Part shown: positions 26,977 through 64,000 of the stretch, one piece after another
Numbering within the stretch: position 1 is the stretch's first letter
Layout: every line of letters starts with the position of its first letter
DNA from: Periplaneta americana
Lineage: Eukaryota; Arthropoda; Insecta; Blattodea; Blattidae
Direction of reading: 5' to 3'
Length of the DNA: 64,000 nucleotides
NCBI RefSeq assembly: GCF_040183065.1
Contig: NW_027185501.1
Location: 956,001 to 1,020,000 of the forward strand
Made by a program: the position numbers and the translations under genes
The notes under the pieces: generated by a model
Seen by the model: only the letters and a program-made list of their open reading frames with translations
Database searches by the model: none
What the model was told of the DNA's origin: nothing

Positions 26977-26979
26977 TAT

Positions 26980-30339: not shown

Positions 30340-30424
30340 CATGGGGAGCCTCTGGGAGCCTGTCTGACAGGCTTTATGACCTTCATTTCTTATCTACTTT
30401 TGAACATAGTTCTCCCCTGTGCAG

Positions 30425-37057: not shown

Positions 37058-38783
37058 TTGAATAATTTCGAGGGAAAATTGTTCCGGAGCCGGGTATCGA
37101 ACCTGGGACCTTAGGTTTAACGTACTAACGCTCTACCACTGAGCTACTCGGGAACTCTAACCGACACCGATCCAATTTTTCCCTCTATATACACAGACCT
37201 CAAAGTGGGATGACAACCGTCAAGCATCCAACTTCGAGTGCATACCAACTCCGTGTGTCTTAAATTGTGGTTTTCTGTTAACGAACGGTGACGTATATTA
37301 TGCAAATCAAGATTTCAGTTATAACTCCCTGTAAAGTTGATTTGAATAATTTCGAGGGAAAAATTGTTCCTGAGCCGGGTATCGAACCCGGGACCTTTGG
37401 TTTAACGTACCAACGCTCTACCACTGAGCTACTCGGGAACTCTAACCGACACCGAACCAATTTTTCCCTCTATATCCACAGACCTCAAAGTGGGCTGACA
37501 ACCGTCAAGCATTCAACTTCGAGTGCACACTAACTCCGTGTGACTTAAATTGTGGTTTTCTGTCAACGAACAGTGACGTGTATTATGCAAATCAAGATTT
37601 CAGGTATAACTCCCTGTAAAGTTGATTTGAATAATTTCGAGGGAAAAATTGTTCCGGAGCCGGGTATCGAACCCGGGACCTTTAGTTTAACGTACCAACG
37701 CTCTACCACTGAGCTACTCGGGAACTCTAACCGACATCGATCCAATTTTTCCCTCTATATCCACAGACCTCAAAGTGGGCTGACAACCGTCAAGCATTCA
37801 ACTTCGAGTGCACATTAACTCCGTGTGACTTAAATTGTGGTTTTCTGTTAACGAACAGTGACGTGTATTATGCAAATCAAGATTTCAGGTATAACTCACT
37901 GTAGAGTTGATTTGAATAATTTCGAGGGAAAAATTGTTCCGGAGCCGGGTATCGAACCCGGGATCTTTGGTATTACGTACCAACGCTCTACCACTGAGCT
38001 ACTCGGGAACTCTAACCGACACCGATCCAAATTTTCCCTCTATATCCACAGACCTCAAAGTGGGCTGACAATCGTCAAGCATCCAACTTCGAGTGCACAC
38101 TAAATCCATGTGACTTAAATTGTGATTTTCTGTTAACGAACAGTGACGTGTATTATGCAAATCAAGATTTCAGGTATAACTCCCTGTAAAGTTGATTTGA
38201 ATAATTTCGAGGGAAAAATTGTTCCGGAGCCGGGTATCGAACCCGGGACCTTTGGTTTAACGTACCAACGCTCTACCACTGAGCTACTCGGGAACTCTAA
38301 CCGACACCGATCCAATTTTTCCCTCTATATCCACAGACCTCAAAGTGGGCTGACAACCGTCAAGCATGCAACTTCGAGTGCACACTAACTCCGTGTGACT
38401 TAAATTGTGGTTTTCTGTTAACGAACAGTGACGTGTATTATGCAAATCAAGATTTCAGGTATAACTCCCTGTAAAGTTGATTTGAATAATTCCGAGGGAA
38501 AAATTGTTCCGGAGCCGGGTATCGAACCCGGGACCTTTGGTTTAACGTACCAACGCTCTAACACTGAGCTACTCGGGAAATCTAACCGACACCGATCCAA
38601 TTTTTCCCTCTATATCCACAGACCTCAAAGTGGGCTGACAACCGTCAAGCATCAAACTTCGAGTGCACACTAACTCCGTGTGAATTAAATTCTGGTTTTT
38701 TGTTAACGAACAGTGACGTGTATTATGCAAATCAAGATTTCAAGTATAACTCCCTCTAAAGTTGATTTGAATAATTTCGAGGG
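37058..38783 (-). repeat. Array block 1: six monomers on the - strand
   Basis: tRNA-like cores at 37082-37153, 37367-37438, 37652-37723, 37937-38008, 38222-38293 and 38507-38578. Exact 285-bp spacing. The leftmost copy is the most diverged (GTACTAACG for GTACCAACG, GGTGACGTATATT), as often at satellite edges. Confidence 0.95.
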
Positions 38784-38836
38784 AAAAATTGGTACGTTAA
38801 ACCAAAGGTTCCGGGTTCGATACCCGGCTCCGGAAC
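38770..38836. other. Orientation switch of the array
   Basis: - strand spacer (ATTTCGAGGGAAAAATTGG) runs straight into the + strand 3' half of a core (TACGTTAAACCAAAGG, to 38836). TTGG is common to both sides. The 5' half of that core is missing. The result is a near-palindrome centred near 38807, with GAGGGAAAAATT and AATTTTTCCCTC at its flanks. Confidence 0.9.
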
Positions 38837-40134
38837 AATTTTTCCCTCGAAATTATTCAAATCAACTTTACAGGGAGTTATACCTGAAATCTTGATTTGC
38901 ATAATACACGTCACTGTTCGTTAACAGAAAACCGCAACTTAAGTCACACGGAGTTAGTGTGCACTCGAAGTTGGATGCTTGACGGTTGTCAGCCCACTTT
39001 GAGGTATGTGGATATAGAGGGAAAAATTGGATCGGTGTCGGTTAGAGTTCCCGAGTAGCTCAGTGGTAGAGCTTTGGTACGTTAAACCAAAGGTCCCGGG
39101 TTCGATCCCCGGCTCCGAAACAATTTTTCCCTCGAAATTATTCAAACCAACTTTACAGGGAGTTATACCTGAAATCTTGATTTGCATAATACACGTCACT
39201 GTTCGTTAACAGAAAACCATAATTTAAGTCACACGGAGTTAGTGTGCACTCGAAGTTGCATGCTTGACGGTTGTCAGCCCACTTTGAGGTCTGTGGATAT
39301 AGAGGGAAAAATTGGATCGGTGTCGGTTAGAGTTCCCGAGTAGCTCAGTGGTAGAGCGGTGGTACGTTAAACCAAAGGTCCAGGGTTCGATAACCGGCTA
39401 CGGAACAATTTTTCCCTCGAAATTATTCAAATCAACTTTACAGGGAGTTATTCCTGAAATCTTGATTAGCATAATACACGTCACTGTTCGTTAACAGAAA
39501 ACCACAATTTAAGTCACACGGAGTTAGTGTGCACTCGAAGATGCATGCTTGACGGTTGTCAGCCCACTTTGAGGTCTGTGGATATAGAGGGAAAAATTGG
39601 ATCGGTGAAGGTTAGAGTTCCCGAGTAGCTCAGTGGTGGAGCGTTGGTACGTTAAACCTAAGATCCCGGGTTCGATACCCGGCTCCGTAACAATTTTTCA
39701 ATCGAAATAATTCAAATCAACTTTACAGGGAGTTATACCTGAAATCTTGATTTGCATAATACACGTCACTGTTCGTTAACAGTAAACCACAATTTAAGTC
39801 ACACGGAGTTAGTGTGCACTAAAAGTTGGATGCTTGACGGTTGTCAGCCCACTTTGGGGTCTGTGGTTATAGAGGGAAAAATTGGAACGGTGTCGGTTAG
39901 AGATCCCGAGTAGCTCAGTGGTAGAGCGTTGGTACGTTAAACCAAAGGTCCCGGGTTCGATACCCGGCTCCGGAACAATTTTTCCCTAGAAAATATAAAA
40001 ATCAACTATACAGGGAGTTATACCTGAAATCTTGATACACGTCACTGTTCGTTAACAGAAAACCACAATTTAAGTCACACGGAGTTCGTGTGCACTCGAA
40101 GTTGGATGCTTGTCGGTTGTCAGCCCACTTTGAG
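38837..40134 (+). repeat. Array block 2: first + strand monomers
   Basis: Cores start at 39049, 39334, 39619 and 39904, 72 nt each. The copy at 39904 is followed by a spacer lacking about 9 bp (CTTGATACACGTC). The cores at 39334 and 39619 have changes in the anticodon or T arms. Confidence 0.93.
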
Positions 40135-43100
40135 GTCTGTGTATATAGAGGGAAAAATTGGATCGGTGTCGGATAGAGTTCCCGAGTAGCTCAGTGGTAG
40201 AGCGTTGGTACGTTAAACCAAAGGTCCCGGGTTCGATACCCGGCTCCGGAACAATTTTTCCCTCGAAATTATTCAAATCATCTTTACAGGGAGTTATACC
40301 TGAAATCTTGATTTGCATAATACACGTCACTGTTCGTTAACAGAAAACCACAATTTAACTCACACGGAGTTAGTGTGCACTCGAAGATGCATGATTGACG
40401 GTTGTCAGCCCACTTTGAGGCCTGTCTATATGGAGGGAAAAATTGTATCGGTGTCGGTTAGAGTTCCCGAGTAGCACAGTCGTAGAGCGTTGGTACGTTA
40501 AACCAAAGTTCCCGGGTTCGATACTCGGCTCCGGAACAATTTTTCCCTCGAAATTATTCAAATCAACTTTACAGGGAGTTATACCTGAAATCTTGATTTG
40601 CATAATATACGTAACTGTTCGTTAACAGAAAACCACAATTTAAGTCACACGGAGTTAGTGTGCACTCGAAGTTGGATGCATGACGGTTGTCAGCCCACTT
40701 TGAGGTCTGTGGATATTGAGGGAAAAATTGGATCGGTGTCGTTTAGAGTTCCCGATTAGCTCAGTGGTAGAGCGTTGGTACGTTAAACCAAAGATCCTGG
40801 GTACGATACCCGGACCCGGAAAAATTTTCCCGTCGAAATTATTCAAATCAACTTTAAAGGGAGTTATACCTGAAATCTTGAATTGCATAATACACGTCAC
40901 TGTTCGTTAACAGAAAACCACAATTTAAGTCACACGGAGTTAGTGTGCACTCGAAGATGGATGCTTGACGTTTGTCAGCCCACTTTGTGCTCTGTGGATA
41001 TAGAGGGCAAAATTGGATCGGTGTCTGTTAGAGTTCCCGAGTAGCTCAGTGGTAGAGCGTTGGTACGTTAAACCAAAGGGCACGGGGTCGATACCCGGAT
41101 CCGGAACAATTTTTCCCTCGAAATTATTCAAATCAACTTTACAGGGAGTTATACCTGAAATCTTGATTTGCATAATACACGTCACTGTACGATAACAGAA
41201 CACCTCAATTTAAGTCACACGGAGTTATTGTGCACTCGAAGTTGGATACTTGACGTTTGTCAGCCCACTTTGAGGTCTGTGGATATGGAGGGAAAAATTG
41301 GATCGGTGTCGGCTAGAGTTCCCGAGTAGCTCAGTGGTAGAGCGTTGGTACGTTAAACCAAAGGTCCCGGGTTCGATCCCCGGCTCCGGTAAAATTTTTC
41401 CCTCGAAATTATTCAAATCAACTTTACAGGGATTTATACCTGAAATCTTGATTTGCATAATACACGTCACTGTTCGTTAACAGAAAACCATAATTTAAGT
41501 CACACGTAGTTAGTGTGCACTCGAAGTTGCATGCTTGACGGTTGTCAGCCCACTTTGAGGTCTGTGGATATAGAGGGAAAAATTGGATCGGTGTCGGTTA
41601 GAGTTCCCGAGTAGCTCATTGGTAGAGCGTTGGTACGTTAAACCAAAGGTCCAGGGTTCGATATCCGGCACCGGAACAATTTTTCCGTCGAAATTATTCA
41701 AATCAACTTTACAGGGAGTTATTCCTGAAATCTTGATTAGCAAAATACACGTCACTGTTCGTTAACAGAAAACCACAATTTAAGTCACACGGAGTTAGTG
41801 TGCATTAAAAGTTGGATGCTTGACGGTTGTCAGCCCACTTTGAGGTCTGTGGATATAGAGGGATAAATTGGAACGGTGTCGGTTAGAGATCCCGAGTAGC
41901 TCAGTGGTAGAGCGTTGGTACGTTAAACCAAATGTCCCGGGTTCGATACCCGGCTCAGGAACAATTTTTCCCTAGAAATTATAAAAATCAACTTTACAGG
42001 GATTTATACCTGAAATCTTGATACACGTCACTGTTCGTTAACAGAAAACCACAATTTAAGTCACACGGAGTTCGTGTGCACTCGAAGATGCATGATTGAC
42101 GGTTGTCAGCCCACTTTGAGGCCTGTCTATATGGAGGGAAAAATTGGATCGGTGTCGGTTAGAGTTCCCGAGTAGCACAGTCGTAGAGCGTTGGTACGTT
42201 AAACCAAAGGTCCCGGGTTAGATACCCGGCTCCGGAACAATTTTTCCCTCGACATTATTCAAATCAACTTTTCAGGGAGTTATACCTGAAATCTTGATTT
42301 GCATAATACACGTCACTGTTAGTTAACAGAAAACCACAATTTAAGTCACACGGAGTTAGTGTGCACTCGAAGTTGGATGCTTGACGGTTGTCAGCCCACT
42401 TTGAGGTCTGTGGATATAGAGGGAAAAATTGGATCGGTGTCGGTTAGAGTTCCCGAGTAGCTCAGTGGTAGAGCGTTGGTACGTTAAACCAAAGGTCCCG
42501 GGTTCGATACCCGGCTCCGGAACAATTTTTCCCTCGAAATTATTCAAATCAAATTTACAGGGAGTTATACCTGAAATCTTGATTTGCATAATACACGTCA
42601 CTGTTCGTTAACAGAAAACCACAATTTAAGTCACACGGAGTTAGTGTGCACTCGAAGTTGCATGCTTGACTGTTGTCAGCCTACTTAAAGGCCTGTGTAT
42701 ATGGAGGGAAAAATTGGATCGGTGTCGGTTAGAGTTCCCGAGTAGCTCAGTGGTAGAGCGTTGGTACGTTAAACCAAAGGTCCCGGGTTCGATACCCGGC
42801 TGCGGAAGAATTTTTCCATCGAAATTATTCAAATCAACATTGCAGGGAGTTATACCTGAAATCTTGATTTGCATAATACACGTCACTGTTCGTTAACAGG
42901 AAACCACAATTTAAGTCACACGGAGTTAGTGTGCACTCGAAGTTGGATGCTTGACGGTTGTCAGCCCACTTTGAGGTCTGTGGATATAGAGGGAAAAATT
43001 GGATCTGTGTCGGTTAGAGTTCCCGAGTAGCTCAGTGGTAGAGCGTTGGTACGTTAAACTAAAGGTCCCGGGTTCGATACCCGGCTCCGGAACAATTTTT

Positions 43101-43260
43101 CCCTCGAAATTATTCAAATCAACTTTACAGGGTTTTATTCCTGAAATCTAGATTTGCATAATACACGTCACTGTTCGTTAACAGAAAACCATAATTTAAG
43201 TCACACGGAGTTAGTGTGCACTCGAAGTTGCATGCTTGACGGTTGACAGCCCACTTTGAG
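40135..43260 (+). repeat. Higher-order repeat unit A (11 monomers, 3126 bp)
   Basis: Cores start at 40180, 40465, 40750, 41035, 41320, 41605, 41890, 42166, 42451, 42736 and 43021. Each monomer has private variants (for example AGCACAGTCG at 40465 and 42166, CGATTAGCTC at 40750), and the same order recurs in unit B at +3126. Confidence 0.93.
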
Positions 43261-46200
43261 GTCTGTGTATATAGAGGGAAAAATTGGATCGGTGTCGGAT
43301 AGAGTTCCCGAGTAGCTCAGTGGTAGAGCGTTGGTACGTTAAACCAAAGGTCCCGGGTTCGATACCCGGCTCCGGAACAATTTTTCCATCGAAATTATTC
43401 AAATCATCTTTACAGGGAGTTATACCTGAAATCTTGATTTGCATAATACACGTCACTGTTCGTTAACAGAAAACCACAATTTAACTCTCACGGAGTTAGT
43501 GTGCACTCGAAGATGCATGATTGACGGTTGTCAGCCCACTTTGAGGCCTGTCTATATGGAGGGAAAAATTGTATCGGTGTCGGTTAGAGTTCCCGAGTAG
43601 CACAGTCGTAGAGCGTTGGTACGTTAAACCAAAGTTCCCGGGTTCGATACTCGGCTCCGGAACAATTTTTCCCTCGAAATTATTCAAATCAACTTTACAG
43701 GGAGTTATACCTGAAATCTTGATTTGCATAATATACGTAACTGTTCGTTAACAGAAAACCACAATTTAAGTCACACGGAGTTAGTGTGCACTCGAAGTTG
43801 GATGCATGACGGTTGTCAGCCCACTTTGAGGTCTGTGGATATTGAGGGAAAAATTGGATCGGTGTCGTTTAGAGTTCCCGAGTAGCTCAGTGGTAGAGCG
43901 TTGGTACGTTAAACCAAAGATCCTGGGTTCGATACCCGGACCCGGAAAAATTTTCCCGTCGAAATTATTCAAATCAACTTTAAAGGGAGTTATACCTGAA
44001 ATCTTGAATTGCATAATACACGTCACTGTTCGTTAACAGAAAACCACAATTTAAGTCACACGGAGTTAGTGTGCACTCGAAGATGGATGCTTGACGTTTG
44101 TCAGCCCACTTTGTGCTCTGTGGATATAGAGGGCAAAATTGGATCGGTGTCTGTTAGAGTTCCCGAGTAGCTCAGTGGTAGAGCGTTGGTACGTTAAACC
44201 AAAGGTCACGGGGTCGATACCCGGATCCGGAACAATTTTTCCCTCGAAATTATTCAAATCAACTTTACAGGGAGTTATACCTGAAATCTTGATTTGCATA
44301 ATACACGTCACTGTACGATAACAGAACACCTCAATTTAAGTCACACGGAGTTATTGTGCACTCGAAGTTGGATACTTGACGTTTGTCAGCCCACTTTGAG
44401 GTCTGTGGATATGGAGGGAAAAATTGGATCGGTGTCGGCTAGAGTTCCCGAGTAGCTCAGTGGTAGAGCGTTGGTACGTTAAACCAAAGGTCCCGGGTTC
44501 GATCCCCGGCTCCGGTAAAATTTTTCCCTCGAAATTATTCAAATCAACTTTACAGGGATTTATACCTGAAATCTTGATTTGCATAATACACGTCACTGTT
44601 CGTTAACAGAAAACCATAATTTAAGTCACACGTAGTTAGTGTGCACTCGAAGTTGCATGCTTGACGGTTGTCAGCCCACTTTGAGGTCTGTGGATATAGA
44701 GGGAAAAATTGGATCGGTGTCGGTTAGAGTTCCCGAGTAGCTCATTGGTAGAGCGTTGGTACGTTAAACCAAAGGTCCAGGGTTCGATATCCGGCACCGG
44801 AACAATTTTTCCGTCGAAATTATTCAAATCAACTTTACAGGGAGTTATTCCTGAAATCTTGATTAGCAAAATACACGTCACTGTTCGTTAACAGAAAACC
44901 ACAATTTAAGTCACACGGAGTTAGTGTGCATTAAAAGTTGGATGCTTGACGGTTGTCAGCCCACTTTGAGGTCTGTGGATATAGAGGGATAAATTGGAAC
45001 GGTGTCGGTTAGAGATCCCGAGTAGCTCAGTGGTAGAGCGTTGGTACGTTAAACCAAATGTCCCGGGTTCGATACCCGGCTCAGGAACAATTTTTCCCTA
45101 GAAATTATAAAAATCAACTTTACAGGGATTTATACCTGAAATCTTGATACACGTCACTGTTCGTTAACAGAAAACCACAATTTAAGTCACACGGAGTTCG
45201 TGTGCACTCGAAGATGCATGATTGACGGTTGTCAGCCCACTTTGAGGCCTGTCTATATGGAGGGAAAAATTGGATCGGTGTCGGTTAGAGTTCCCGAGTA
45301 GCACAGTCGTAGAGCGTTGGTACGTTAAACCAAAGGTCCCGGGTTAGATACCCGGCTCCGGAACAATTTTTCCCTCGACATTATTCAAATCAACTTTTCA
45401 GGGAGTTATACCTGAAATCTTGATTTGCATAATACACGTCACTGTTAGTTAACAGAAAACCACAATTTAAGTCACACGGAGTTAGTGTGCACTCGAAGTT
45501 GGATGCTTGACGGTTGTCAGCCCACTTTGAGGTCTGTGGATATAGAGGGAAAAATTGGATCGGTGTCGGTTAGAGTTCCCGAGTAGCTCAGTGGTAGAGC
45601 GTTGGTACGTTAAACCAAAGGTCCCGGGTTCGATACCCGGCTCCGGAACAATTTTTCCCTCGAAATTATTCAAATCAAATTTACAGGGAGTTATACCTGA
45701 AATCTTGATTTGCATAATACACGTCACTGTTCGTTAACAGAAAACCACAATTTAAGTCACACGAAGTTAGTGTGCACTCGAAGTTGCATGCTTGACTGTT
45801 GTCAGCCTACTTAAAGGCCTGTGTATATGGAGGGAAAAATTGGATCGGTGTCGGTTAGAGTTCCCGAGTAGCTCAGTGGTAGAGCGTTGGTACGTTAAAC
45901 CAAAGGTCCCGGGTTCGATACCCGGCTGCGGAAGAATTTTTCCATCGAAATTATTCAAATCAACTTTGCAGGGAGTTATACCTGAAATCTTGATTTGCAT
46001 AATACACGTCACTGTTCGTTAACAGGAAACCACAATTTAAGTCACACGGAGTTAGTGTGCACTCGAAGTTGGATGCTTGACGGTTGTCAGCCCACTTTGA
46101 GGTCTGTGGATATAGAGGGAAAAATTGGATCTGTGTCGGTTAGAGTTCCCGAGTAGCTCAGTGGTAGAGCGTTGGTACGTTAAACTAAAGGTCCCGGGTT

Positions 46201-46330
46201 CGATACCCGGCTCCGGAACAATTTTTCCCTCGAAATTATTCAAATCAACTTTACAGGGTTTTATTCCTGAAATCTAGATTTGCATAATACACGTCACTGT
46301 TCGTTAACAGAAAACCATAATTTAAGTCAC
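43261..46330 (+). repeat. Higher-order repeat unit B (second copy of A)
   Basis: Cores start at 43306, 43591, 43876, 44161, 44446, 44731, 45016, 45292, 45577, 45862 and 46147. It matches unit A base for base apart from scattered single changes (for example GGGCACGGGG in A, GGTCACGGGG in B), well under 2% by eye. The match ends about 46318-46333. Confidence 0.92.
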
Positions 46331-48080
46331 ACGTAGTTAGTGTGCACTCGAAGTTGCATGCTTGACGGTTGTCAGCCCACTTTGAGGTCTGTGGATATAG
46401 AGGGAAAAATTGGATCGGTGTCGGTTAGAGTTCCCGAGTAGCTCATTGGTAGAGCGTTGGTACGTTAAACCAAAGGTCCAGGGTTCGATATCCGGCACCG
46501 GAACAATTTTTCCGTCGAAATTATTCAAATCAACTTTACAGGGAGTTATTCCTGAAATCTTGATTGGCAAAATACACGTCACTGTTCGTTAACAGAAAAC
46601 CACAATTTAAGTCACACGGAGTTAGTGTGCATTAAAAGTTGGATGCTTGACGGTTGTCAGCCCACTTTGAGGTCTGTGGATATAGAGGGATAAATTGGAA
46701 CGGTGTCGGTTAGAGATCCCGAGTAGCTCAGTGGTAGAGCGTTGGTACGTTAAACCAAATGTCCCGGGTTCGATACCCAGCTCAGGAACAATTTTTCCCT
46801 AGAAATTATAAAAATCAACTTTACAGGGATTTATACCTGAAATCTTGATACACGTCACTGTTCGTTAACAGAAAACCACAATTTAAGTCACACGGAGTTC
46901 GTGTGCACTCGAAGATGCATGATTGACGGTTGTCAGCCCACTTTGAGGCCTGTCTATATGGAGGGAAAATTGGATCGGTGTCGGTTAGAGTTCCCGAGTA
47001 GCACAGTCGTAGAGCGTTGGTACGTTAAACCAAAGGTCCCGGGTTATATACCCGGCTCCGGAACAATTTTTCCCTCGACATTATTCAAATCAACTTTTCA
47101 GGGAGTTATACCTGAAATCTTGATTTGCATAATACACGTCACTGTTAGTTAACAGAAAACCACAATTTAAGTCACACGGAGTTAGTGTGCACTCGAAGTT
47201 GGATGCTTGACGGTTGTCAGCCCACTTTGAGGTCTGTGGATATAGAGGGAAAAATTGGATCGGTGTCGGTTAGAGTTCCCGAGTAGCTCAGTGGTAGAGC
47301 GTTGGTACGTTAAACCAAAGGTCCCGGGTTCGATACCCGGCTCCGGAACAATTTTTCCCTCGAAATTATTCAAATCAAATTTACAGGGAGTTATACCTGA
47401 AATCTTGATTTGCATAATACACGTCACTGTTCGTTAACAGAAAACCACAATTTAAGTCACACGGAGTTAGTGTGCACTCGAAGTTGCATGCTTGACTGTT
47501 GTCAGCCTACTTAAAGGCCTGTGTATATGGAGGGAAAAATTGGATCGGTGTCGGTTAGAGTTCCCGAGTAGCTCAGTGGTAGAGCGTTGGTACGTTAAAC
47601 CAAAGGTCCCGGGTTCGATACCCGGCTGCGGAAGAATTTTTCCATCGAAATTATTCAAATCAACTTTGCAGGGAGTTATACCTGAAATCTTGATTTGCAT
47701 AATACACGTCACTGTTCGTTAACAGGAAACCACAATTTAAGTCACACGGAGTTAGTGTGCACTCGAAGTTGGATGCTTGACGGTTGTCAGCCCACTTTGA
47801 GGTCTGTGGATATAGAGGGAAAAATTGGATCTGTGTCGGTTAGAGTTCCCGAGTAGCTCAGTGGTAGAGCGTTGGTACGTTAAACTAAAGGTCCCGGGTT
47901 CGATACCCGGCTCCGGAACAATTTTTCCCTCGAAATTATTCAAATCAACTTTACAGGGTTTTATTCCTGAAATCTAGATTTGCATAATACACGTCACTGT
48001 TCGTTAACAGAAAACCATAATTTAAGTCACACGGAGTTAGTGTGCACTCGAAGTTGCATGCTTGACGGTTGACAGCCCAC
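46331..48080 (+). repeat. Higher-order repeat unit C (six-monomer partial copy)
   Basis: Cores start at 46432, 46717, 46992, 47277, 47562 and 47847. It repeats 44630-46330 at an offset of 1700-1701 bp. Its right edge (CCATAATTTAAGTCACACGG, then GGTTGACAGCCC) matches the right edge of unit A (43185-43255), not that of B. Confidence 0.9.
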
Positions 48081-50116: not shown

Positions 50117-50188
50117 TCCCGAGTAGCTCAGTGGTAGAGCGTTGGTACGTTAAACCAAAGGTCCCGGGTTCGATACCCGGCTCCGGAA
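50117..50188 (+). tRNA. Representative array tRNA-like core (GTT, Asn-type)
   Basis: Acceptor TCCCGAG/CTCCGGA (6 of 7 pairs, C4-C69 mismatch), T8 A9, D arm GCTC/GAGC, anticodon arm TTGGT/ACCAA with loop ACGTTAA (GTT central, C instead of U at 33), five-nt variable loop, perfect T arm CCGGG/CCCGG with TTCGATA, discriminator A. A box TAGCTCAGTGG (50124-50134) and B box GGTTCGATACC (50167-50177) are intact. TTTTT at 50192-50196 could end Pol III transcription. The fold resembles tRNA-Asn only in the anticodon; the body is not that of the usual eukaryotic tRNA-Asn. Likely a tRNA-like RNA or SINE-type core, not a translating tRNA. Confidence 0.6.
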
Positions 50189-53100
50189 CAATTTTTCCCT
50201 CGAAATTATTCAAATCAACTTTACAGGGAGTTATACCTGAAATCTTGATTTGCATAATACACGTCACTGTTCGTTAACAGAAAAACCACAATTTAAGTCA
50301 CACGGAGTTAGTGTGCACTCGAAGTTGCATGCTTGACGGTTGTCAGCCCACTTAGAGGCCTGTGTATATGGAGGGAAAAATTGGATCGGTGTCGGTTAGA
50401 GTTCCCGAGTAGCTCAGTGGTAGTGCGTTAGTACGTTAAACCAAAGGTCCCGGGTTCGAAACCCGGCTCCGGAAGTATTTTTCCATCTAAATTATTCAAG
50501 TCAACTTTGCAGGGAATTATACCTGAAACCTTGATTTGCATAATACACGTCACTGTTCGTTAACAGGAAACCACAATTTAAGTCACACGGAGTTAGTGTG
50601 CACTCGAAGTTGGATGCTTCACGGTTGTCAGCCCACTTTGAGGTCCGTGGATATAGAGGGAAAAATTGGATCGGTGTCGGTTAGAGTTCCCGAGTAGCTC
50701 AGTGGTAGAGCGTTGGTACGTTAAACCATAAGTCCAGGGTTCGATACCCGGCTCCGGAACAATTTTTCACTCGAAATTATTCAAATCAACTTTACAGGGA
50801 GTTATACCTGAAATCTTGATTTGCATAATACACGTCACTGTACGATAACAGAAAACCTCAATTTAAGTCACACGGAGTTAGTGTGCACTCGAAGTTGGAT
50901 ACTTGACGTTTGTCAGCCCACTTTGGGGTCTGTGGATATGGAGGGAAATATTGGATCGGTGTCGGCTAGAGTTCCCGAGTAGCTCAGTGGTAGAGCGTTG
51001 GTACGTTAAACCAAAGGTCCCGGGTTCGATCCCCGGCTCCGGAAAAATTTTTCCCTCGAAATTATTCAAATCAACTTTACATAGAGTTATTCCTGAAATC
51101 TTGATTAGCATAATACACGTCACTGTTCGTTAACAGAAAACCACAATTTAAGTCACACGGAGTTAGTGTGCACTCGAAGTTGCATGCTTGACGATTGTCA
51201 GCCCAGTTTGAGGTCTGTGGATATAAAGGGAAAAATTGCATCGGTGAAGGTTAGAGTTCCCGAGTAGCTCAGTGGTAGAGCGTTGGTACGTTAAACCAAA
51301 GGTCCCGGGTTCGATACCCGGCTCCGGAACAATTTTTCCCTAGGAATTGTAAAAATCAACTTTACAGGGAGTTATACCTGAAATCTTGATACACGTCACT
51401 GTTCGTTAACAGAAAACCACAATTTAAGTCACACGGAGTTCGTGTGCACTCGAAGTTGGATGCTTGTCGGTTGTCAGCCCACTTTGAATTCTGTGGATAT
51501 AGAGGGAAAAATTGGATCGGTGTCGGATAGAGTTCCCGAGTAGCTCAGTGGTAGAGCGTTGGTACGTTAAACCAAAGGTCCCGGGTTCGATACCCGGCTC
51601 CGGAACAATTTTTCAATCGAAATTATTCAAATCAACTTTACAGGGAGTTATATCTGAAATCTTGATTTGCGTAATATACGTCAATGTTCGTTAACAGAAC
51701 ACCACAATTTAAGTCACACGGAGTTAGTGTGCACACGAAGTTGCATGCTTGACCGTTGTCAGCCCACTTTGAGGTCTGTGGATATAGAAGGAAAAATTGG
51801 ATCGGTGTCGGTTAGAGTTCCCGAGTAGCTCAGTGGTAGAGCGTTGGTACGTTAAACCAAAGGTCCCGGGTTCGATACCCGGCTCCGGAACAATTTTTCC
51901 CTCGAAATTATTCAAATCAAATTTACAGGGAGTTATACCTGAAATCTTGATTTGCATAATACACGTCACTGTTCGTTAACAGAAAACCACAATTTAAGTC
52001 ACACGGAGTTAGTGTACACTCGAAGTTGCATGCTTGACGGTTGTCAGCCTACTTAAAGGCCTGTGTATATGGAGGGAAAAATTGGATCGGTGTCGGTTAG
52101 AGTTCCCGAGTAGCTCAGTGGTAGAGCGTTGGTACGTTAAACCAAAGGTCCAGGGTTCGATACCCGGCTCCGGAACAATTTTTCCCTCGAAATTATTGAA
52201 ATCAACTTTACAGGGAGTTATTCCTGAAATCTTGATTTGCATAATACACGTCACTGTTCGTTAACAGAAAACCACAATTTAAGTCACACGGAGATAGTGT
52301 GCACTCGAAGTTGCATGCTTGACGGTTGTCAGCCCAGTTTGACGTCTGTGGATATAAAGGGAAAAATTGGATAGGTGAAGGTTAGAGTTCCCGAGTAGCT
52401 CAGTGGTAGAGCGTTGGTACGTTAAACCAAAGGTCCCGGGTTCGATACCCGGCTCAGGAACAATTTTTTCCACGAAATTATTAAAATCAATTTTACAGGG
52501 AGTTATACCTGAAATCTTGATACACGTCACTGTTCATTAACAGAAAACCACAATTTAAGTCACTCGGAGTTAGTGTGCACTCGAAGTTGGATGCTTGTCG
52601 GTTGTCAGCCCACTTTGAGGTCTGTGGATATAGAGAGAAAAATTGAATCGTTGTCGGATAGAGTTCCCGAGTAGCTCAGTCGTAGAGCGTTGGTACGTTA
52701 AACGAAAGGTCTCGGGTTTGATACCCGGCTCCGGAACAATTTTTCCCTCGAAATTATTCAAATCAACTTTACAGGGATTTATACCTGAAATCATGATTTG
52801 CGTAATATACGTCAATGTTCGTTAACAGAAAACCACAATTTAAGTCACACGGAATTAGTGTGCACTCGAAGTTGCATGCTTGACGGTTGTCAGCCCACTT
52901 TGAGGTCTGTGGATATAGAGGGAAAAATTGGATCGGTGTCGGTTAGAGTTACCGAGTAGCTCAGTGGTAGTGCGTTAGTACGTTAAACCAAAGGTCCCGA
53001 GTTCGATACCCGGCTGCGGAACAATTTTTCCCTTGAATTTATTCAATTCAACTCTACAGGGAGTTATAGCTGAAATCTTGATTTGCATAATACACGTCAC

Positions 53101-55794
53101 TGTTCGTTAACAGAAAACCACAATTTAAGTCACACGGAGTTAGTGTGCACTCGAAGTTGGATGCTTGACGGTTGTCAGCCCAATTTGAAGTCTGTGGATA
53201 TAGAGGGAAAAATTGGATCGGTGTCGGTTAGAGTTCCCGAGTAGCTCAGTGGTAGAGCGTTGGTACGTTGAACCAAAGGTCCCGGGTTCGAAAACCGCTT
53301 CCGGAACAATATTTCCCTCGAAATTATTCAAATCAACTTTACCGGGAGTTATACCTGAAATCTTGATTTGCATAATACACGTCACTGTTCGTTAACAGAA
53401 AACCACAATTTAAGTCACACGGAGTTAGTGTGCACTCGAAGTTCCATGCTTGACGGTTGTCAGCCCACTTTGAGGTCTGTGGAAATAGAGGGAAAAATTG
53501 GATCGGTGTCGGTTAGAGTTTCCTTGTAGCTCAATGGTATAGCGTTGTACGTTAAACCAAAGGTCCAGGGTTGGATACCCGGATCCGAAACAATTTTTTC
53601 CTCGAAATTATTCAAATCAACTTTACAATGAGTTATACTTGAAATCTTGATTTGCATAATACACGTCAATCTTCGTTAACAGAAAACCACAATTTAAGTC
53701 ACACGGAGTTAATGTGCACTCGAAGTTGGATGCTTGTCGGTTGGCAGCCCACTTTGAGGTCTGTGGATATCAAAGAAAAATTGGATCGGTGTCGGTTAGA
53801 GTTCCCGAGTAGCTCAGTGGCAGAGCGTTGGTACGTTAAACCAAAGGTCCCGGGTTCGATACCCGGCTCCGGAACATTTTTTGCCTCGAAATTATTCAAA
53901 TCAACTTTCCAGAAAGTTATACCTGAATTCTTGATTTGCATAATACACGTCACTGTTCGTTAACAGAAAACCACAATTTAAGTCACACGGAGTTAGTGTG
54001 CACTCGAAGTTTGATGCTTGACGGTTGTCAGCCCACATTGAGGTCTGTGGAAATAGAGGAAATACTGGATCGGTGTCGGTTAGAGTTCCCGAGTAGCTCA
54101 GTGGTAGAGCGTTGGTACGTTAAACCGAAGGTCCCGGGTTCGATACCCGGCCCCGGAACAATTTTTTCCTCGAAATTATTGAAATCAACTTTACAGGGAG
54201 TTATACCTGAAATCTAGATTTGCATAATAGACGTCACTGTTCGTTAACAGAAAACCACAATTTAAGTCACACGGAGTTAGTGTGCTGTCGAAGTTGGATG
54301 CTTGACGGTTGTCAGCCCACTTTGATTTCTGTGGATATAGAGGGAAAAATTGGATCGGTGTCGGTCAGAGTTCCCGAATAGCTCAGTGGTAGAGCGTTGG
54401 TACGTTAAAGCAAATGTCCCGGGTTCGATACCCGGCTATGGAACAATTTTTCCCTCGAAATTATTCAAATCAACTTTACAGGGAGTTATACCTGAAATCT
54501 TGATTTGCATTATACACGTCACTGTTCGTTAACAGAAAACCACAATTTAAGTCACACGGAGTTAGTGTGCACTCGAAGTTGGATGCTTGAAGGTTGTCAG
54601 CCCAATTTGAGTTCTGTGGATATAGAAGGAAAAATTTGATCGGTGTAGGTTAGAGTTCCCGAGTAGCTCAGTGGTAGAGCGTTGGTACGTTAAACCAAAG
54701 GTCCCGGGTTCGATACCCGGCTCCGGAAAAATATTTCCCTAGGAATAATTCAAATCAACTTTACCGGGAGTTATAACCTGAAATCTTGATTTGCATAATA
54801 CACGTCACTGTTCGTTAACAGAAAACCACAATTTAAGTCACACGCTGTTATTGTGCACTCGAAGTTGGATGCTTGACGGTTGTCAGCCCACATTGAGGTC
54901 TGTGGATGTAGAGGAAATACTGGATCGGTGTCGGTTAGAGTTCCCGAGTAGCTCAGTGGCAGAGCGTTGGTACGTTAAACCAAAGGTCCCGGGTTCGATA
55001 CCCGGCCCCGGAATACTTTTTCCCTCGAAATTATTCAAATCAACTTAACAGGGATTTATACATGAAATCTAGATTTGTAAAATACACGTCACTGTTCGTT
55101 AACAGAAAACCACAATTTAAGTCACACGGAGTTAGTGTGCAGTCGAAGTTGGATGCTTGAAGGTTGTCAGCCCACTTTGATGTCTGTGGATATAGAGGGA
55201 AAAATTGGATCGGTGTCGGTCAGAGTTCCCGAGTAGCTCAGCGGTAGAGCGTTGGTACGTTAAAGCAAAGGTCCCGGGTTCGATACCCTGCTCCGGAACA
55301 ATTTTTCCCTCGAAATTATTCAAATCAACTTTACAGGGAATTGTACCTGAAATCTTGACTTGCATTATACACGTCACTGTTCGTTAACAGAAAACCACAA
55401 TTTAAGTCACACGGAGTTAGTGTGCACTCGAATTTGGATGCTTGATGGTTGTCAGCCCACTTTGAGGTCTGTGGATATAGAGGAAATATTGGATCGGTGT
55501 CGGTTAGTGTTCCCGAGTAGAACAGTGGTAGAGCGTTGGTACGTTAAACCAAAGGTCCCGAGTTCGATACCCGGCTCCGGAACAATTTTTCCCTCGAAAT
55601 TATTCAAGTCAACTTTACAGGGAGTTATACCTGAAATCTTGATTTGCATAATACACGTCACTGTTCGTTAACAGAAAACCACAATTTAAGTCACACGGAG
55701 TTAGTGTGCACTCGAAGTTGTATGCTTGACGGTTGTCAGCCCACTATGAGGTCTGTGGATATAGAGGAAATATTGGATCGGTGTCGGTAAGAAT

Positions 55795-55920
55795 TCCCGA
55801 GTAGCTCAGTGGTAGAGCGTTGGTACGTTAAAACAAAGGTCCCGGGATCGATACCCGGCCCCGTGGTGGAGCGTTGCTACGTTAAACCAAAGGTCCCGGG
55901 TTCGATACCCGGCTCCGGAA
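55795..55920 (+). tRNA. Array core with duplicated anticodon and T arms
   Basis: A complete 5' part is followed by two anticodon plus T-arm units (GGTACGTTAAAACAAAGG and GCTACGTTAAACCAAAGG), joined at CCCCGTGGTGGAGCG. The same structure occurs at 59551-59676 and 62167-62291. Confidence 0.8.
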
Positions 55921-58900
55921 CAATTTTTCCCTCGAAATTATTCAACACAACTTTACAGTTAGTTATACCTCAAATCTTGATTTGCATAATACACGTCACT
56001 GTTCGTTAACAGAAAACCACAATTTAAGTCACACGTAGTTAGTGTGCTCTCGAAGTTGGATGCTTGACGGTTGTCAGCCCACTTTGAGGTCTGTGGATAT
56101 AGAGGGAAAAAATTGGATCGGTGTCGGTTAGAGTTCCCGAGTAGCTCAGTGGTAGAGCGTTGGTAAGTTAAACCAAAGGTCCCGGGTTCGAAACCAGGCT
56201 CCGGAACAATTTTTCCCTCGAAATTATTCAAATCAACTTTACAGGGAGTCATACCTGATCTCTTGTTTTGCATAATACACGTCACTTTTCGTTAACAGAA
56301 AACCACAATTTAAGTCACACGGAGTTAGTGTGCACTCGAAGTTGGATGCTTGACGGTTGTGAGCCCCCTTTGAGGTCTGGGAATATAGAGGGAAAAATTG
56401 AATCGGTGTCGGTTAGGGTTCCCGAGTAGCTCAATGGTAGAGCGTTGGTATGTTAAACCAAAGTCCCGGGTTCGATACCCGGCTCCGGAACATTTTTTCC
56501 CTCGAATTTATTCAAATCAACTTTACAGGGAGTTATACCTGAAATCTTGATTTGCATAATACACGTCACTGTTCGTTAACAGAAAACCACAATTTAAGTC
56601 ACACGGGTTTAGTGTGCACTCGAAGTTGGATGCTTGACGGTTGTCAGCCCAATTTGAGGTCTGTGGATATAGATTGAAACATTGGATCGGTGTCGGTTGG
56701 AGTTCCCGAGTAGCTCAGTGGTAGAGCGTTGGTACGTTAAACCAAAGGTCCCGGGTTCGATACCCGGCTCCGGAACAATTTTTCCCTCGAAATTATTCAA
56801 ATCAACTTTACAGGGAGTTATACCTGAAATCTTGATTTGCATAATACACGTCACTGTTCGTTAACAGAAAACAACAATTTAAGTCACACGGATTTAGTGT
56901 GCACTCGAAGTTAAATGTTTGACGGTTGTCAGCCCACTTTGAGGTCTGTGGATATAGAGGGAAAAATTGGATCGGTGTCGGTTAGAGTTCCCGAGTAGCT
57001 CAGTGGTAGAGCGTTGGTACGTTAAACCAAAGGTCCCGGGTTCGATAACCGCCTCCGGAACAATTTTTCCCTCGAAATTATTCATATCAACTTTACAGGG
57101 AATTATACCTGAAATCTTGATTTGCATAATACACGTCACTGTTCGTTAACAGAAAACCACAATTTAAGTCACACGGAGTTAGTGTGCACTCGAAGTTGGA
57201 TGCTTGACGGTTGTCAGCACAATTTGAGGTCTGTGGATATAGAGGGAAAAATTGGATCGGTGTCGGTTAGAGTTCTCGAGTAGCTCAGTGGTAGAGCGTT
57301 GGTACGTTAATCCAAAGGTCCCGGGTTCGATACCCGGCTCCGGAAAATTTTTTCCCTCGAAATTATTCAAATCAACTTTACAGGGACTTATACCTGAAAT
57401 CTTGATTTGCATAATGCACGTCACTGTTCGTTAACAGAAAACCACAATTTAAGTCACACGGAGTTAGTGTGCACTCGAAGTTGGATGCTTCACGGTTGTC
57501 AGCCCACTTTGAGGTAAGTGGATATAGAGGGAAAAATTGGATCGGTGTCGGTTAGAGTTCCCTTGTAGCTCAGTGGTAGAGCGTTGGTATGTTAAACCAA
57601 AGTGCCGGGTTCCATACACGGCTCCCTAACAATTTTTCCCTCGAAATTATTCAAGTCAACTTTACAGGGAGTTATACCTGAAATCTTGTTTTGCATAATA
57701 CACGTCACTGTTCGTAAACAGAAAACCACAATTTAAGTCACACGGAGTTAGTGTGCACTCGAAGTTTGATGCTAGACGGTTGTCAGCCCACTTTGAGGTC
57801 TGTATATATAGGGGAAAAAATTGGATCGGTGTCGGTTAGAGTTCCCGAGTAGTATAGTGGTAGAGCGTTGGTACGTTAAACCAAAGGTCCCGGGTTCGAT
57901 ACCCGGCTCCGGAACAATTTTTCCCTCGAAATTATTCAAATCAACTTCACAGGGAGTTATACCTGAAATCTTGATTTGCATAATACACGTCACTGTTCGT
58001 TGACAGAAAACCACAATTTAAGTCACACGGATTTAGTGTGCACTCGAAGTTAAATGCTTGACGGTTGTCAGCCCACTTTGAGGTCTGTGGATATAGAGGG
58101 AAAAATTGGATCGGTGTCGGTTAGAGTTCCCGAGTAGCTCAGTGGTAGAGCGTTGGTAAGTTAAACCAAAGTTCCCGGGTTCGATACCAGGATCCGGAAC
58201 AATTTTTCCCTCGAAATTATTCAAATCAACTTTACAGGGAGTTATACCTGAAATCTTGATTTGCATAATACACGTCACTGTTCGTTAACAGAAAACCACA
58301 ATTTAAGTCACACGGAGATTGTGTGCACTCGAAGTTGGATGCTTGACGGTTGTCAGCACAATTTGAGGTCTGTGGATATAGAGGGAAAAATTGGATCGGT
58401 GTCGGTTAGAGTTCTCGAGTAGCTCAGTGGTAGAGCGTTGGTACGTTAATCCAAAGGTCCCGGGTTCGATACCCGGCTCCGGAATATTTTTTCCCTCGAA
58501 ATTATTCAAATCAACTTTACAGGGACTTATACCTGAAATCTTGATTTGCATAATACACGTCACTGTTCGTTAACAGAAAACCACAATTTAAGTCACACGG
58601 AGTTAGTGTGCACTCGAAGTTGGATGCTTGACGGTTGTCAGCCCACTTTGAGGTAAGTGGATATAGAGGGAAAAATTTGATCGGTGTCGGTTAGAGTTCC
58701 CGAGTAGCTCAGTGGTAGAGTGTTGGTATGTTGAACCAAAGTCCCGGGTTCCATACACGGCTCCCTAACAATTTTTCCCTCGAAATTATTCAAGTCAACT
58801 TTACAGGGAGTTATACCTGAAATCTTGATTTGCATTATACACGTCACTTTTCGTTAACAGAAAACAACAATTTAAGTCACACAGAGTTAGTGTGCACTCG

Positions 58901-61900
58901 AAGTTGGATGCTTGACGGTTGTCAGCGCACTTTGAGGTCTGTGGATACAGAGGGAAAAAGTGGATAGGTGTCGGTTAGAGTTCCCGAGTAGCTCAGTGGT
59001 AGAGCGTTGGTACGTTAAACCAAAGGTCCCGTGTTCGATACCCGGCTCCGGAAAAATTTTTCCCTCGAAATTATTCAAATCAACATTACAGGGAGTTATA
59101 CCTGAAATCTTGTTTTGCATAATACACGTCACTGTTCGTAAACAGAAAACCACAATTTAAGTCACACGGAGTTAGTGTGCACTCGAAGTTTGATGCTAGA
59201 CGGTTGTCAGCCCACTTTGAGTTCTGTATATATAGGGGAAAAAATTGGATCGGTGTCGGTTAGAGTTCCCGAGTAGAATAGTGGTAGAGCGTCGGTACGT
59301 TAAACCAAAGGTCCCGGGTTCGATACCCGGCTCCGGAACAATTTTTCCCTCGAAATTATTCAAATAAACTTTACAGGAAGTTATACCTGAAATCATGTTT
59401 TGCATAATACACGTCTCTGTTCGTTAACAGAAAACCACAATTTAAGTCACACGGAGTTAGTGTTCACTCGAAGTTGGATGCTTGACGGTTGTCAGCCCAC
59501 TTTGAGGTCTGTGGATATAGAGGAAATATTGCATCGGTGTCGGTTAGAGTTCCCGAGTAGCTCAGAGGTAGAGCGTTGGTACGTTAAAACAAAGGTCCCG
59601 GGATCGATACCCGGCCCCGTGGTAGAGCGTTGCTACGTTTAAGCAAAGGTCCCGGGTTCGATACCCGGCTCCGGAACAATTTTTCCCTCGAAATTATTCA
59701 AATCAACTATACAGTTAGTTATACCTGAAATCTTGATTTGCATAATACACGTCACTGTTCGTTAACAGAAAACCACAATTTAAGTCACACGTAGTTAGTG
59801 TGCTCTCGAAGTTGGATGCTTGACGGTTGTCAGCCCACTTTGAGGTCTGTGAATATAGAGGGAAAAATTGGATCGGTGTCGGTTACAGTTCCCAAGTAGC
59901 TCAGTGGTAGAGCGTTGGTACGTTAAACCAACGTTCCCGGGTTCGATATCCGGCTCCGGAACAATTTTTCCCTCGAAATTATTCAAATTAACTTTACAGG
60001 GAGTTATACCTGAAATCTTGATTTGCATAATACACGTCACTGTTCGTTAACAGAAAACCACAATTTAAGTCACACGGAGTTAGTGTGCACTCGAAGTTGG
60101 ATGCTTGACGGTTGTCAGCCCACTTTGAGGTCTGTGGATATAGAGGGAAAAATTGGATCGGTGTCGGTTAGAGTTCCCGAGTAGCTCAGTGGTAGAGCGT
60201 TGGTACGTTAAACCAAAGGTCCCGGGTTCGATATGCGTCTCCGGACAAATTTTTCCCACGAAATTATTCAAATCAACTTTACAGGGAGTTATAACTGAAA
60301 TCTTAATTTGCATAATACACGTCACTGTTCGTTAACAGAATACCACAATTTAAGTCACACGGAGTTAGTGTGCACTCGAAGTTGGATGCTTGACGGTTGT
60401 CAGCGCACTTTGAGGTCTGTGAATATAGAGGGAAAAATTGGATCGGTTTTGGTTAGAGTTCCCGAGTAGTCAGTGGTAGAGGGTTGGACGTTAAACCAAA
60501 GGTCCTGGGTTCGATACCCAGCTCCGGAACAATTTATCCCTCGAAATTATTCAAATCAACTTTACAGAGAGTTATACCTGAAATCTTGATTTGCATAATA
60601 CACGTCACTGTTCGTTAACAGAAAACCACAATTTAAGTCACACGGTGTTAGTGTGCACTCGAAGTAGAAAGCTTGACGGTTGTCAGCCCGCTTTGAGTTC
60701 TGTGGATATAGAGGGAAAAATTGGATCGGTGTCGGTAAGGGTTCCCGAGTAGCTCAGTGGTAGAGTTTTGGTACGTTAAACCAAAGGTCCCGGGTTCGAT
60801 ACCCGGCTCCGGAACAATTTTTCTCTCGAAATTATTCAAATCAACTTTACAGGGAGTTATACCTGAAATTTTGAATTGCATAATACACGTCACTGTTCGT
60901 TAACAGAAAACCACAATTTAAGTCACACTGGTTTAGTGTGCACTCGAAGTTGGATGCTTGACGGTTGTCAGCCCAATTTGAGGTCTGTGGATATATATTC
61001 AAACATTGGATCGGTGTCGGTTGGAGTCCCCGAGTAGCTCAGTGGTAGGGAGTTGGTAAGTTAAACCAAAGGTCCCGGGTTCGATACCCGGCTCCGGAAC
61101 AATTTTTCCCTCGAAATTATTCAAATCAACTTTACAGGGTGTTATACCTGAAATCTTGATTTGCATAATACACGTCACTGTTCATTAACAGAAAACCACA
61201 ATTTAAGTCACACGGATTTAGTGTGCACTCGAAGTTAAATGCTTGACGGTTGTCAGCCCACTTTGAGGTCTGTGGATATAGAGGGAAAAATTGGATCGGT
61301 GTCTGTTAGAGTTCCCGAGTAGCTCAGTGGTAGAGCGTTGGTACGTTAAACCAAAGGTCCCGGGTTCGATAACCGGCTCCGGAACAATTTTTCCCTCGAA
61401 ATTATTGAAATCAACTTTACAGGGAGTTATACCTGAAATCTTGATTTGCATAATACACGTCACTGTTCGTTAACAGAAAACCACAATTTAAGTCACACGG
61501 AGTTAGTGTGCACTGGAAGTTGGATATTTTACGGTTGTCAGCCCACTTTGAGGTCTGTGTATATAGAGGGAAAAATTGAATCGGTGTCGGTTAGATTCCC
61601 CGAGTAGCTCAGAGGAAGAGCGTTGGAACGTTAAACCAAATGTCCCGGGTTCGATATCCGGCTCCGGAACAATTTTTCCCTCGAAATTATTCAAATCAAC
61701 TTTACAGGGATTTATACCTGAAATCTTGATTTGCATAATACACGTCACTGTTCGTTAACAGAAAACCACAATTTAAGTCACACGGAGTTAGTGTGCACTC
61801 GAAGTTGGATGCTTGACGGTTGTCAGCCCACTTTGAGGTCTGTGGATATAGAGGGAAAAATTGGATCGGTGTCGGTGAGAGTTCCCGAGTAGCTCAGTGG

Positions 61901-64000
61901 TAGAGCGTTGGTACGTTAAACCAAAGGTCCCGGGTTCGATACCCGGCTCCGGAACAATATATCCCTCGAAATTATTCAAATCAACTTTACAGGGAGTTAT
62001 ACCTGAAATCTTGATTTGCATAATACACGTCACTGTTCGTTAACAGAAAACCACAATTTAAGTCACACGGAGTTTGTGTGCACTCGAAGTTGGATGCTTG
62101 ACGGTTGTCAGCCCACTTTGAGGACTGTGGATATAGAGGATATATTGGATCGGTGTCGATTAGAGTTCCCGAGTAGCTCAGTGGTAGAGCGTTGGTACGT
62201 TAAACCAAAGGTCCCGGGATCGATACCCGACCACGTGGTAGAGCGTTGCTACGTTAAACCAAGGTCCCGGGTTCGATACCCGGCTCCGGAACAATTTTTC
62301 CCTCGAAATTATTCAAATCAACTTTACAGGGAGTTATACCTGAAATCTTGATTTGCATAATACACGTCACTGTTCGTTAACAGAAAACCACAATTTAAGT
62401 CACACGGAGTTAGTGTGCACTGGAAGTTGGATATTTTACGGTTGTCAGGCCACTTTGAGGTCTGTGTATATAGAGGGAAAAATTGAATCGGTGTCGGTTA
62501 GATTTCCCGAGTAGCTCAGTGGAAGAGCGTTGGAACGTTAAACCAAAGGTCCCGGGTTCGATACCCGGCTGCGGAACAATTTTTCCCTCGAAATTATTCA
62601 AATCAGCTATACAGGGAGTTATACCTGAAATTTTGATTTGCATAAAATACGTCACTGTTCGTTAACAGAAAACCACAATTTAAGTCACACGGAGTTAGTG
62701 TGCACTCGAAGTTGGATGCTTGACGGTTGTCAGCCCAATTTGAGTTCTGTGGATATAGAGGGAAGAATTGGATCGGTGTCGGTTAGAGTTTCCGGGTAGC
62801 TCAGTGGTAGAGCGTTGGTACGTTAAACCAAAGGTCCCGGGTTCGATACCCGGCTCCGGAACAATTTTTCCCTCGAAATTATTCAAATCAACTTTACAGG
62901 GAGTTATACCTGAAATCTTGATTTGCGTAATACACGTCACTGTTCGTTAACAGAAAACCACAATTTAAGTCACACGGAGTTAGTGTGCATTCGAAGTTGG
63001 ATGCTTGACGGTTGTCAGCCCACTTTGAGGTCTGTGGATACAGAGGGAAAAATTGGATTAGTGTCGGTTAGAGTTCCCGAGTAGCTCAGTGGTAGAGCGT
63101 TGGTACGTTAAACCAAAGGTCCCGGGTTCGATACCCGGCTCCGGAACTATTTTTCCCTCGAAATTATTCAAATCAACTTTACAGGGTTTTATACCTGAAA
63201 TCTTGATTTGCATAATACACGTCACTGTTCGTTAACAGAAAACCACAATTTAAGTCACACGGAGTTAGTGTGCATTCGAAGTTGGTTGCTTGACGGTTGT
63301 CAGCCCAATTTGAGGTCTGTGGATATAGAGAAAAAAATTGGATTGGTGTCGGTTAGAGTTCCCGAGTAGTTCAGTGGTAGAGCGTTGGTACGTTAAACCA
63401 AAGGTCCCTGGTTCGATACCCGGCTCCGGAAAAATTTTTCCCTCGAAATTATTCAAATCAACTTTTGAGGGAATTATACCTGAAATCTTGATTTGCATAA
63501 TACACGTCACTGTTCGTTAACAGAATACCACAATTTAAGTCACACGGAGTTAGTGTGCACTCGAAGTTGGATGCTTGACGGTTGTCAGCCCACTTTGAGG
63601 TCTGTGAATATATACGGAAAAATTGGATCGGTGACGGTTAGAGTTCCCGAGTAGGTCAGTGGTAGAACGTTGGATGTTAAACCAAAGGTCCCGGGTTCGA
63701 TAGCCAGCTCCGGAACAATTTTTCCCTCGAAATTATTCAAATCAACTTTACAGGGAGTTATACCTGAAATCTTGATTTGCACAATACACGTCACTGTTCG
63801 TTAACAGAAAACCACAATTTAAGTCAAACGGAGTTAGTGTGCACTCGAAGTTGAAAGCCTGACGGTTGTTAGCGCACTTTGAGGTCTGTGGATACAGAGG
63901 GAAAAATTTGGATAGGTGTCGGTTAGAGTTCATGAGTAGCTCAGTGGTAGAGCGTTGGTACGTTAAACCAAAGGTCCCGTGTTCGATACACGGCTCCGGA

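Follow-up and report, generated by a model that had tools for sequence, protein, structure and literature searches.

A giant satellite of Periplaneta americana lies within one insertion of a tRNA-bearing retroelement that resembles Penelope-like elements

A satellite of about 283 kb in Periplaneta americana, made of 285-bp monomers that each carry a tRNA-like unit, is bracketed by both ends of a single insertion into a LINE. The monomer is very probably a hammerhead-less, tRNA-bearing, retrozyme-like and non-autonomous Penelope-like element (PLE), one insertion of which grew into the satellite. Dispersed copies of the same monomer have target duplications and a 42-nt tail at one end only, an anatomy also seen in PLEs of the same genome. 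From this insertion anatomy we infer that a PLE protein served as helper in trans.

Results

The window analysed here is a stretch of 64,000 nucleotides (C20:956001-1020000, C20 being the scaffold that carries it). A tandem array of 285-bp monomers occupies it from 37058 to its end and continues beyond, in agreement with the original prediction; it is not in a single orientation, as it inverts close to its left end (Table 1). The window holds 89 full-length monomers, 5 on the minus strand and 84 on the plus strand, besides partial ones, where about 94 had been predicted, and the array extends far beyond the window. Only full-length matches enter the monomer counts and divergence figures given here, partial copies being excluded. 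Five full and two partial monomers form the minus-strand start. From C20:993058 to its end at C20:1276291 the array spans about 283 kb, which would amount to about 1,000 monomers if it is continuous, the span being known from sampled stretches of C20: the array was present in 11/11 stretches from 1,030,000 to 1,250,900 and in 4/4 from 1,256,000 to 1,274,600, and absent from all three stretches sampled from 1,280,000 and all four sampled from 1,300,000.

Of the 93 tRNA matches that Rfam returned for the window, 92 belong to the array and one to a separate copy at 26759. ARAGORN made 67 tRNA calls, of which the 66 in the array were 65 Asn(GTT) and one Tyr. The acceptor stem of the array consensus has one C-C mismatch, and the anticodon loop has, by eye, a C at position 33. 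The window also includes an exon of a TRRAP-like gene (30430-30579).

Table 1. Positions of the array, its LINE target, the parts of an example monomer and a dispersed monomer within the window
Feature	Position	Strand	Basis or remark
LINE reverse-transcriptase ORF portion, insertion target	36957..37058	+	Flank join and right-flank translation; ORF resumes at C20:1276292
Left target-site duplication GATCGACTAT, 10 bp	37049..37058	+	Right copy from C20:1276292
Left arm of leftward-pointing monomers, full and partial	37058..38791	-	Tail-less outer end (TGAATAATTTCGAGGG)
Head-to-head inversion junction, 3-nt overlap	38789..38791	.	Minus and plus matches overlap
Right arm, tandem 285-bp monomers	38789..64000	+	Runs on to C20:1276291, with the 42-nt tail there
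13-bp stem, 5' arm (GAGGGAAAAATTG), example monomer	39017..39029	+	
tRNA-like cloverleaf with A-box-like and B-box-like motifs, example monomer	39049..39120	+	ARAGORN, Rfam
13-bp stem, 3' arm, T5 run within, example monomer	39121..39133	+	
42-nt tail hairpin between two putative cDNA start sites, example monomer	39145..39186	+	Consensus coordinates, insertion ends
Dispersed subfamily B monomer, tail-less	26735..26990	-	Monomer match

The left end of the array, TGAATAATTTC, is tail-less and stands directly after GATCGACTAT of the LINE ORF. At the right end a 42-nt tail (...CTTGATTTGCA) is followed by GATCGACTATTGATCAG, the same 10 bases, and the LINE ORF then runs onward. When the two flanks are joined without the array, they find an equal-length match in 40/40 scored LINE copies (of 1677 first-look candidates) at 97-98% identity, spanning query positions 57 or 58 to 307. 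Because the joined flanks match the empty LINE site at equal length, the satellite has the limits of a single retroelement insertion, a point that the original prediction overlooked.

The monomer is not confined to this site. In the genome searched (3,231,669,367 bases in 91 contigs) it is dispersed on many chromosomes, as judged from 40 scored of 1561 first-look candidates. Among the matches listed, best matches only, there were 31 subfamily A sites outside the window array; the 20 that were fetched (L009-L028) hold 22 insertions with matches of at least 90%. Fourteen of the 22 have divergent arms, minus before plus, including one with more than two blocks (L010), and the other eight have one arm only. 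The inversion point and the arm lengths vary between insertions. Seven or more letters are common to both ends in 16/21 insertions, against 11/420 mismatched end pairs, the five insertions with fewer than seven being L009, L016, L020, L026a and L028. The duplications of the dispersed insertions are about 10 bp long, a length in which some letters counted as duplicated may belong to the element. L013, whose right end lies past the fetched stretch, was excluded from the end and duplication tests.

The outer ends follow a strict pattern. With boundaries placed by hand, 23 insertions could be classed, 14 with one tailed and one tail-less end, six with a tail-less end opposite a truncated or unmatched one, and three with a tailed end opposite a truncated or unmatched one; like ends, either two tails or two tail-less ends, occurred in 0/23. 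The tail is thus present at exactly one end in all 14 insertions with both ends intact, as well as in the window array. By eye, neither an A tail nor a short-repeat tail is present at the ends of the dispersed insertions.

These ends bear on two other explanations. The unit could be a tRNA-derived SINE moved by a LINE, its inverted parts arising from twin priming and its tandem monomers from later amplification. SINEs make up 3.47% of the P. americana genome and most have tRNA promoters, according to the available portion of PMC12774602; the unit likewise has a tRNA-like core with A-box-like and B-box-like motifs, and target duplications of about 10 bp are compatible with such an origin. We nevertheless consider it unlikely, as the outer ends are fixed, the inverted arm included, and in 14/14 intact insertions the tail is the whole difference between them. 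LINE twin priming, by comparison, would give a variable inverted outer end. In addition, small insertions are already tandem in both arms, and, rather than forming the head of the unit, the tRNA-like part stops about 25 nt short of its 3' end. A foldback DNA transposon of the FB or Galileo type, with inverted termini made of tandem repeats, would explain divergent arms of tandem monomers between target duplications; it is highly improbable given that the ends are unlike in every intact case, that eight of 22 insertions are one-armed with arm lengths and inversion point variable among insertions, and that PLEs of the same genome follow the same end rule. It was on the fixed yet unequal ends that both a plain SINE with LINE twin priming and a foldback DNA transposon were rejected.

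The comparison with PLEs came from a genome search for GIY-YIG, which gave at least 108 matches (150 of 7670 candidates scored), several of them in close minus/plus pairs. Four PLE loci were fetched (L037-L040). One, L037, encodes a 604-aa ORF with RVT_1 (E 1.1e-13) and GIY-YIG (7.9e-7); its right end enters a minisatellite, and it was left unscored for ends. The remaining three (L038, L039 and L040) are head-to-head inserts with 13, 12 and 12 letters common to both ends, respectively, and all 3/3 have a tail at exactly one end.

This arrangement resembles what has been described for PLEs elsewhere. As set out in the accessible part of PMC11167929, PLE reverse transcription starts at two internal sites in a stem-loop, the tail being the stretch between them, and insertion involves cutting and extension of both target strands. 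In the same portion of that anole PLE study, the start site was the same on both strands in vitro and the tail was optional. For the Penelope of A. vaga, the available text of PMC3846280 reports an inverted pLTR, duplications of 8-10 bp and a 31-bp tail on one inverted pLTR. The strictness seen in P. americana, with one start of each kind per intact insertion, may be new and suggests a rule of PLE integration under which each insertion has one tailed and one tail-less start.

The cockroach unit shares with PLEs (Penelope/Poseidon, Adineta Pen) its tandem units, a head-to-head part, duplications of about 8-13 bp, a tail of 30-45 nt at one end and 5' truncation. It differs from them in that 285 bp is too short for an RT-endonuclease ORF, so that only a non-autonomous element is possible. 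It is also unlike them in having a tRNA-like core, in that no hammerhead core was found in it, and in filling about 283 kb of a single locus. No PLE was found to have the same end sequence as the monomer, and blastn of the unit against eight GIY-YIG loci gave only matches of 11-15 nt (E 1.8 to 6.2). Similarity of the tail to one PLE family is no more than suggestive (shuffle fractions 0.0065 and 0.0005); to the other family it has none (0.26 and 0.37).

An exact CTGANGA, the hammerhead core, is on neither strand of the unit, where only one-mismatch matches occur, and Rfam gave no ribozyme family in it at E up to 10. Rfam is weak alone in this respect. Its search of six GIY-YIG loci found no hammerhead, and it missed a minimal hammerhead-like motif visible by pattern in PLE loci. 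Of the two negative results for the 285-bp unit, the lack of an exact core is therefore the stronger.

The monomers within an insertion carry information about the template. In nine insertions with at least three full monomers, 13 variants off the family consensus are in all monomers of their insertion, 122 are in one monomer and 19 are in some only. In L027, four variants are in all 7 monomers of both arms, with none besides; in L013, one variant is in all 19 monomers of both arms, plus 4 singletons. Across 93 monomers the mean number of differences is 3.4 within an arm, 2.7 between the arms of one insertion and 6.6 between insertions. Since the monomers of one insertion are alike across both arms, the template was probably a unit-length circular RNA of 285 nt, copied by a rolling-circle process of the kind proposed for retrozymes. 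Uniform monomers could also have arisen from later conversion, or by copying of a linear transcript if its source array was already uniform. Variants shared by some but not all monomers occur in L011 (1), L016 (8), L021 (2), L023 (5) and L024 (3), and two all-monomer variants recur in a second insertion (one in L015 and L024, the other in L011 and L014), so that not all of them are private.

A second subfamily, B, includes the dispersed copy in the window (Table 1), and its full-length genome matches are at 96-99% (40 of 1899 candidates scored). The sample compared with A was four copies, two of them from L064, with the tail from two; one B site was deliberately chosen. Between the B and A consensus sequences, 10 stem positions differ: four pairs are changed on both sides, two have become G-U and none is broken. 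The complete pair changes are A-U to G-C in the acceptor stem, U-A to C-G in the anticodon stem, G-C to A-U in the 13-bp stem and A-U to U-A in the tail stem. Four or more such changes would arise by chance placement with a probability of 6.5e-5 over 48 pairs; when a base entered in two of these pairs is counted once, the value is 9e-5 over 47 pairs or 6e-5 over 46. Differences between A and B are also less frequent in the core (6/72) than elsewhere (43/212; Fisher p = 0.019), and in stems (10/95) than at other sites (39/189; p = 0.045). An older relative in L020 keeps 13/13 pairs of the flanking stem despite further changes; by eye, it has lost the anticodon arm and one pair of its T stem is broken.

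Given that, between subfamilies, changes in the cloverleaf, the 13-bp stem and the tail hairpin all leave the pairing intact, selection acts on the mobile RNA rather than on the satellite. Read on the plus strand, the wobble pairs are G-U, and they therefore point to a plus-strand RNA that spans the upstream stem arm as well as the tail. Such an RNA exceeds a Pol III transcript reaching from the tRNA start to the T5 run. The A box fits the canonical form as quoted in the available part of PMC9191728. The B box departs from canonical at one position in subfamily A (GGTTCGATACC) and at two in subfamily B (GGATCGATACC). Because subfamily B spread with a B box off at two positions, spread does not seem to depend on a strong Pol III promoter. 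The longer RNA and the departures in the B box of subfamily B lead us to prefer, with modest confidence, a structural or processing role for the tRNA-like fold.

Inside the array, by contrast with the mobile subfamilies, the tRNA unit shows no sign of maintenance and the monomers decay neutrally. Over 89 monomers, the core of 72 nt departs from the consensus at a rate of 0.0353 per site and the spacer at 0.0374 (Mann-Whitney p = 0.62), with singletons per site at 0.56 and 0.45, respectively (p = 0.17). Stems, at 0.040, are not spared relative to loops, at 0.029; among changed stem cells, 109 break a pair, 32 keep it by one change and three keep it by two. The original prediction held that cloverleaf, A box, B box and T5 are intact in nearly every copy. 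Exact A boxes are found in 66/89 array monomers, exact B boxes in 53/89 and T5 in 82/89, and only 42/89 have all three. Exact retention is 74% for the A box and 60% for the B box, against a mean of 68% over all monomer 11-mers, placing them at the 68th and 19th percentile among these 11-mers.

The original prediction offered two readings, a core under selection in the satellite or an array that is young or homogenised. The first of these, preferred there, in which the tRNA unit would serve the array in Pol III transcription or as a boundary, is accordingly very improbable: the 92 Rfam matches in the array and the structure kept between subfamilies would suit it, whereas core and spacer diverge equally, exact retention of the boxes is close to that of other 11-mers, and pair-breaking stem changes outnumber pair-keeping ones by 109 to 35. 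The equal divergence of core and spacer, which is the sequence half of the check proposed with the original prediction and came out against it, led to the rejection of selection on the core inside the array; what stands of that idea is the pair-preserving change between the mobile subfamilies A and B. Among the 84 plus monomers, pairs that differ at no more than 2 sites are found at recurrent spacings (ten pairs 11 apart, five 6 apart and five 17 apart), which shows that the array grew by block duplication.

Discussion

The fixed but unequal ends, the target duplications and the arms of tandem monomers are best accounted for by a PLE-type insertion. In the mechanism that we propose, a 285-nt unit RNA, probably circular, would be bound by a PLE protein, which would make staggered cuts in the target, about 10 bp apart, and prime cDNA from both DNA ends. 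One cDNA would start at the 5' foot of the 42-nt hairpin and so have no tail, and the other would start at the 3' foot and include it. Repeated passage of an arm round the template could yield tandem monomers, and microhomology would join the two arms head-to-head. For the tRNA-like core on its 13-bp stem, processing or protein binding is the most likely role, and Pol III transcription is possible. The insertion into the LINE would later have grown in place by block duplication to form the 283-kb satellite. A more specific version is tentative, and we are inclined to doubt it: the cloverleaf on the 13-bp stem would replace the hammerhead as processing device, host tRNA enzymes would cut and close unit circles, and the PLE enzyme would copy these by rolling circle, with cDNAs from opposite feet of the hairpin.

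The metazoan non-LTR retrozymes are among the closest known systems. In the available parts of PMC7229834 and PMC7761336, these are described as tandem monomers of about 300 bp with a GC content under 45%, occurring as dimers to long multimers with duplications of more than 4 bp and with a probable circular RNA, all of which resembles the cockroach unit. Retrozymes carry type I hammerheads according to the same texts, whereas no hammerhead core was found in the cockroach unit. By the hammerhead criterion the unit is therefore not a retrozyme, but it works like a retrozyme moved by a PLE. PLEs are already suspected as the retrozyme helper in the portions of PMC7229834 and PMC7761336 at hand. 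The latter describes the retrozyme repeats as being without a motif that identifies the helper, while the unit ends of the cockroach carry a PLE tail. For this reason the element bears on a question posed in that text, namely the identity of the autonomous element that mobilises the small tandem circular-RNA elements of animals.

Two further systems share single traits with the unit. Helenus / TRIMp3, as presented in the accessible part of PMC10886601, is a non-autonomous retroelement whose terminal repeat includes a tRNA-like Pol III unit; it is an LTR element with a PBS, a PPT and 4-5-bp duplications, whereas the cockroach unit has the anatomy of a PLE. The SINE-derived satellites of squamates, as described in the available part of PMC10702118, are likewise arrays that arose from an interspersed SINE-type element. 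Those arrays formed from portions of SINEs, while in the cockroach the whole unit is tandem at insertion and its ends bound the satellite. In the titles and abstract openings of the papers listed on PLEs, retrozymes, SINEs, tRNA satellites and the cockroach, no description of a PLE-type element with a tRNA unit was found.

With both ends, the target duplication and the empty site all present, the birth of a giant satellite is readable at this locus, and one mobile-element insertion can seed such a satellite. The 4,974 annotated tRNAs of P. americana, as given in the portion of PMC12774602 available, can be seen in the same light, and mobile and satellite copies may contribute to tRNA counts in such genomes.

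Features of the array and related loci

Judged by eye from its left flank, a second subfamily A insertion, at the dispersed site L019, appears to sit in the LINE reverse-transcriptase ORF family that also hosts the window array. In three monomers of the array the tRNA core contains a 54-bp duplication, which points to slippage or exchange there. An older relative, subfamily C (68-73%), is present at the dispersed-insertion site L020, where the copy lacks the anticodon arm and keeps the flanking stem.

An exon-like frame in the window matches TRRAP chains of solved structures (E ~5e-10), which places the start of the satellite ~6.5 kb away from a TRRAP-like exon. The window minisatellites both contain similar ACTTTAAG...CGCC motifs, as seen by eye. 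At L037, the 3' end of the Penelope-like element (PLE) with the 604-aa ORF enters a 125-bp minisatellite, which has a 92-bp stretch in common with a segment near the ORF start.

Coordinates of the features described
Feature	Position
Minisatellites, 91-bp and 30-bp/24-bp	window 29342-29632 and 30218-30340
TRRAP-like exon	window 30430-30579
54-bp core duplications	window 55809-55917, 59567-59673, 62181-62282
Subfamily C copy	L020:2973-3140
125-bp minisatellite	L037:5816-7001, together with the PLE 3' end
92-bp stretch near ORF start	L037:2814-2905
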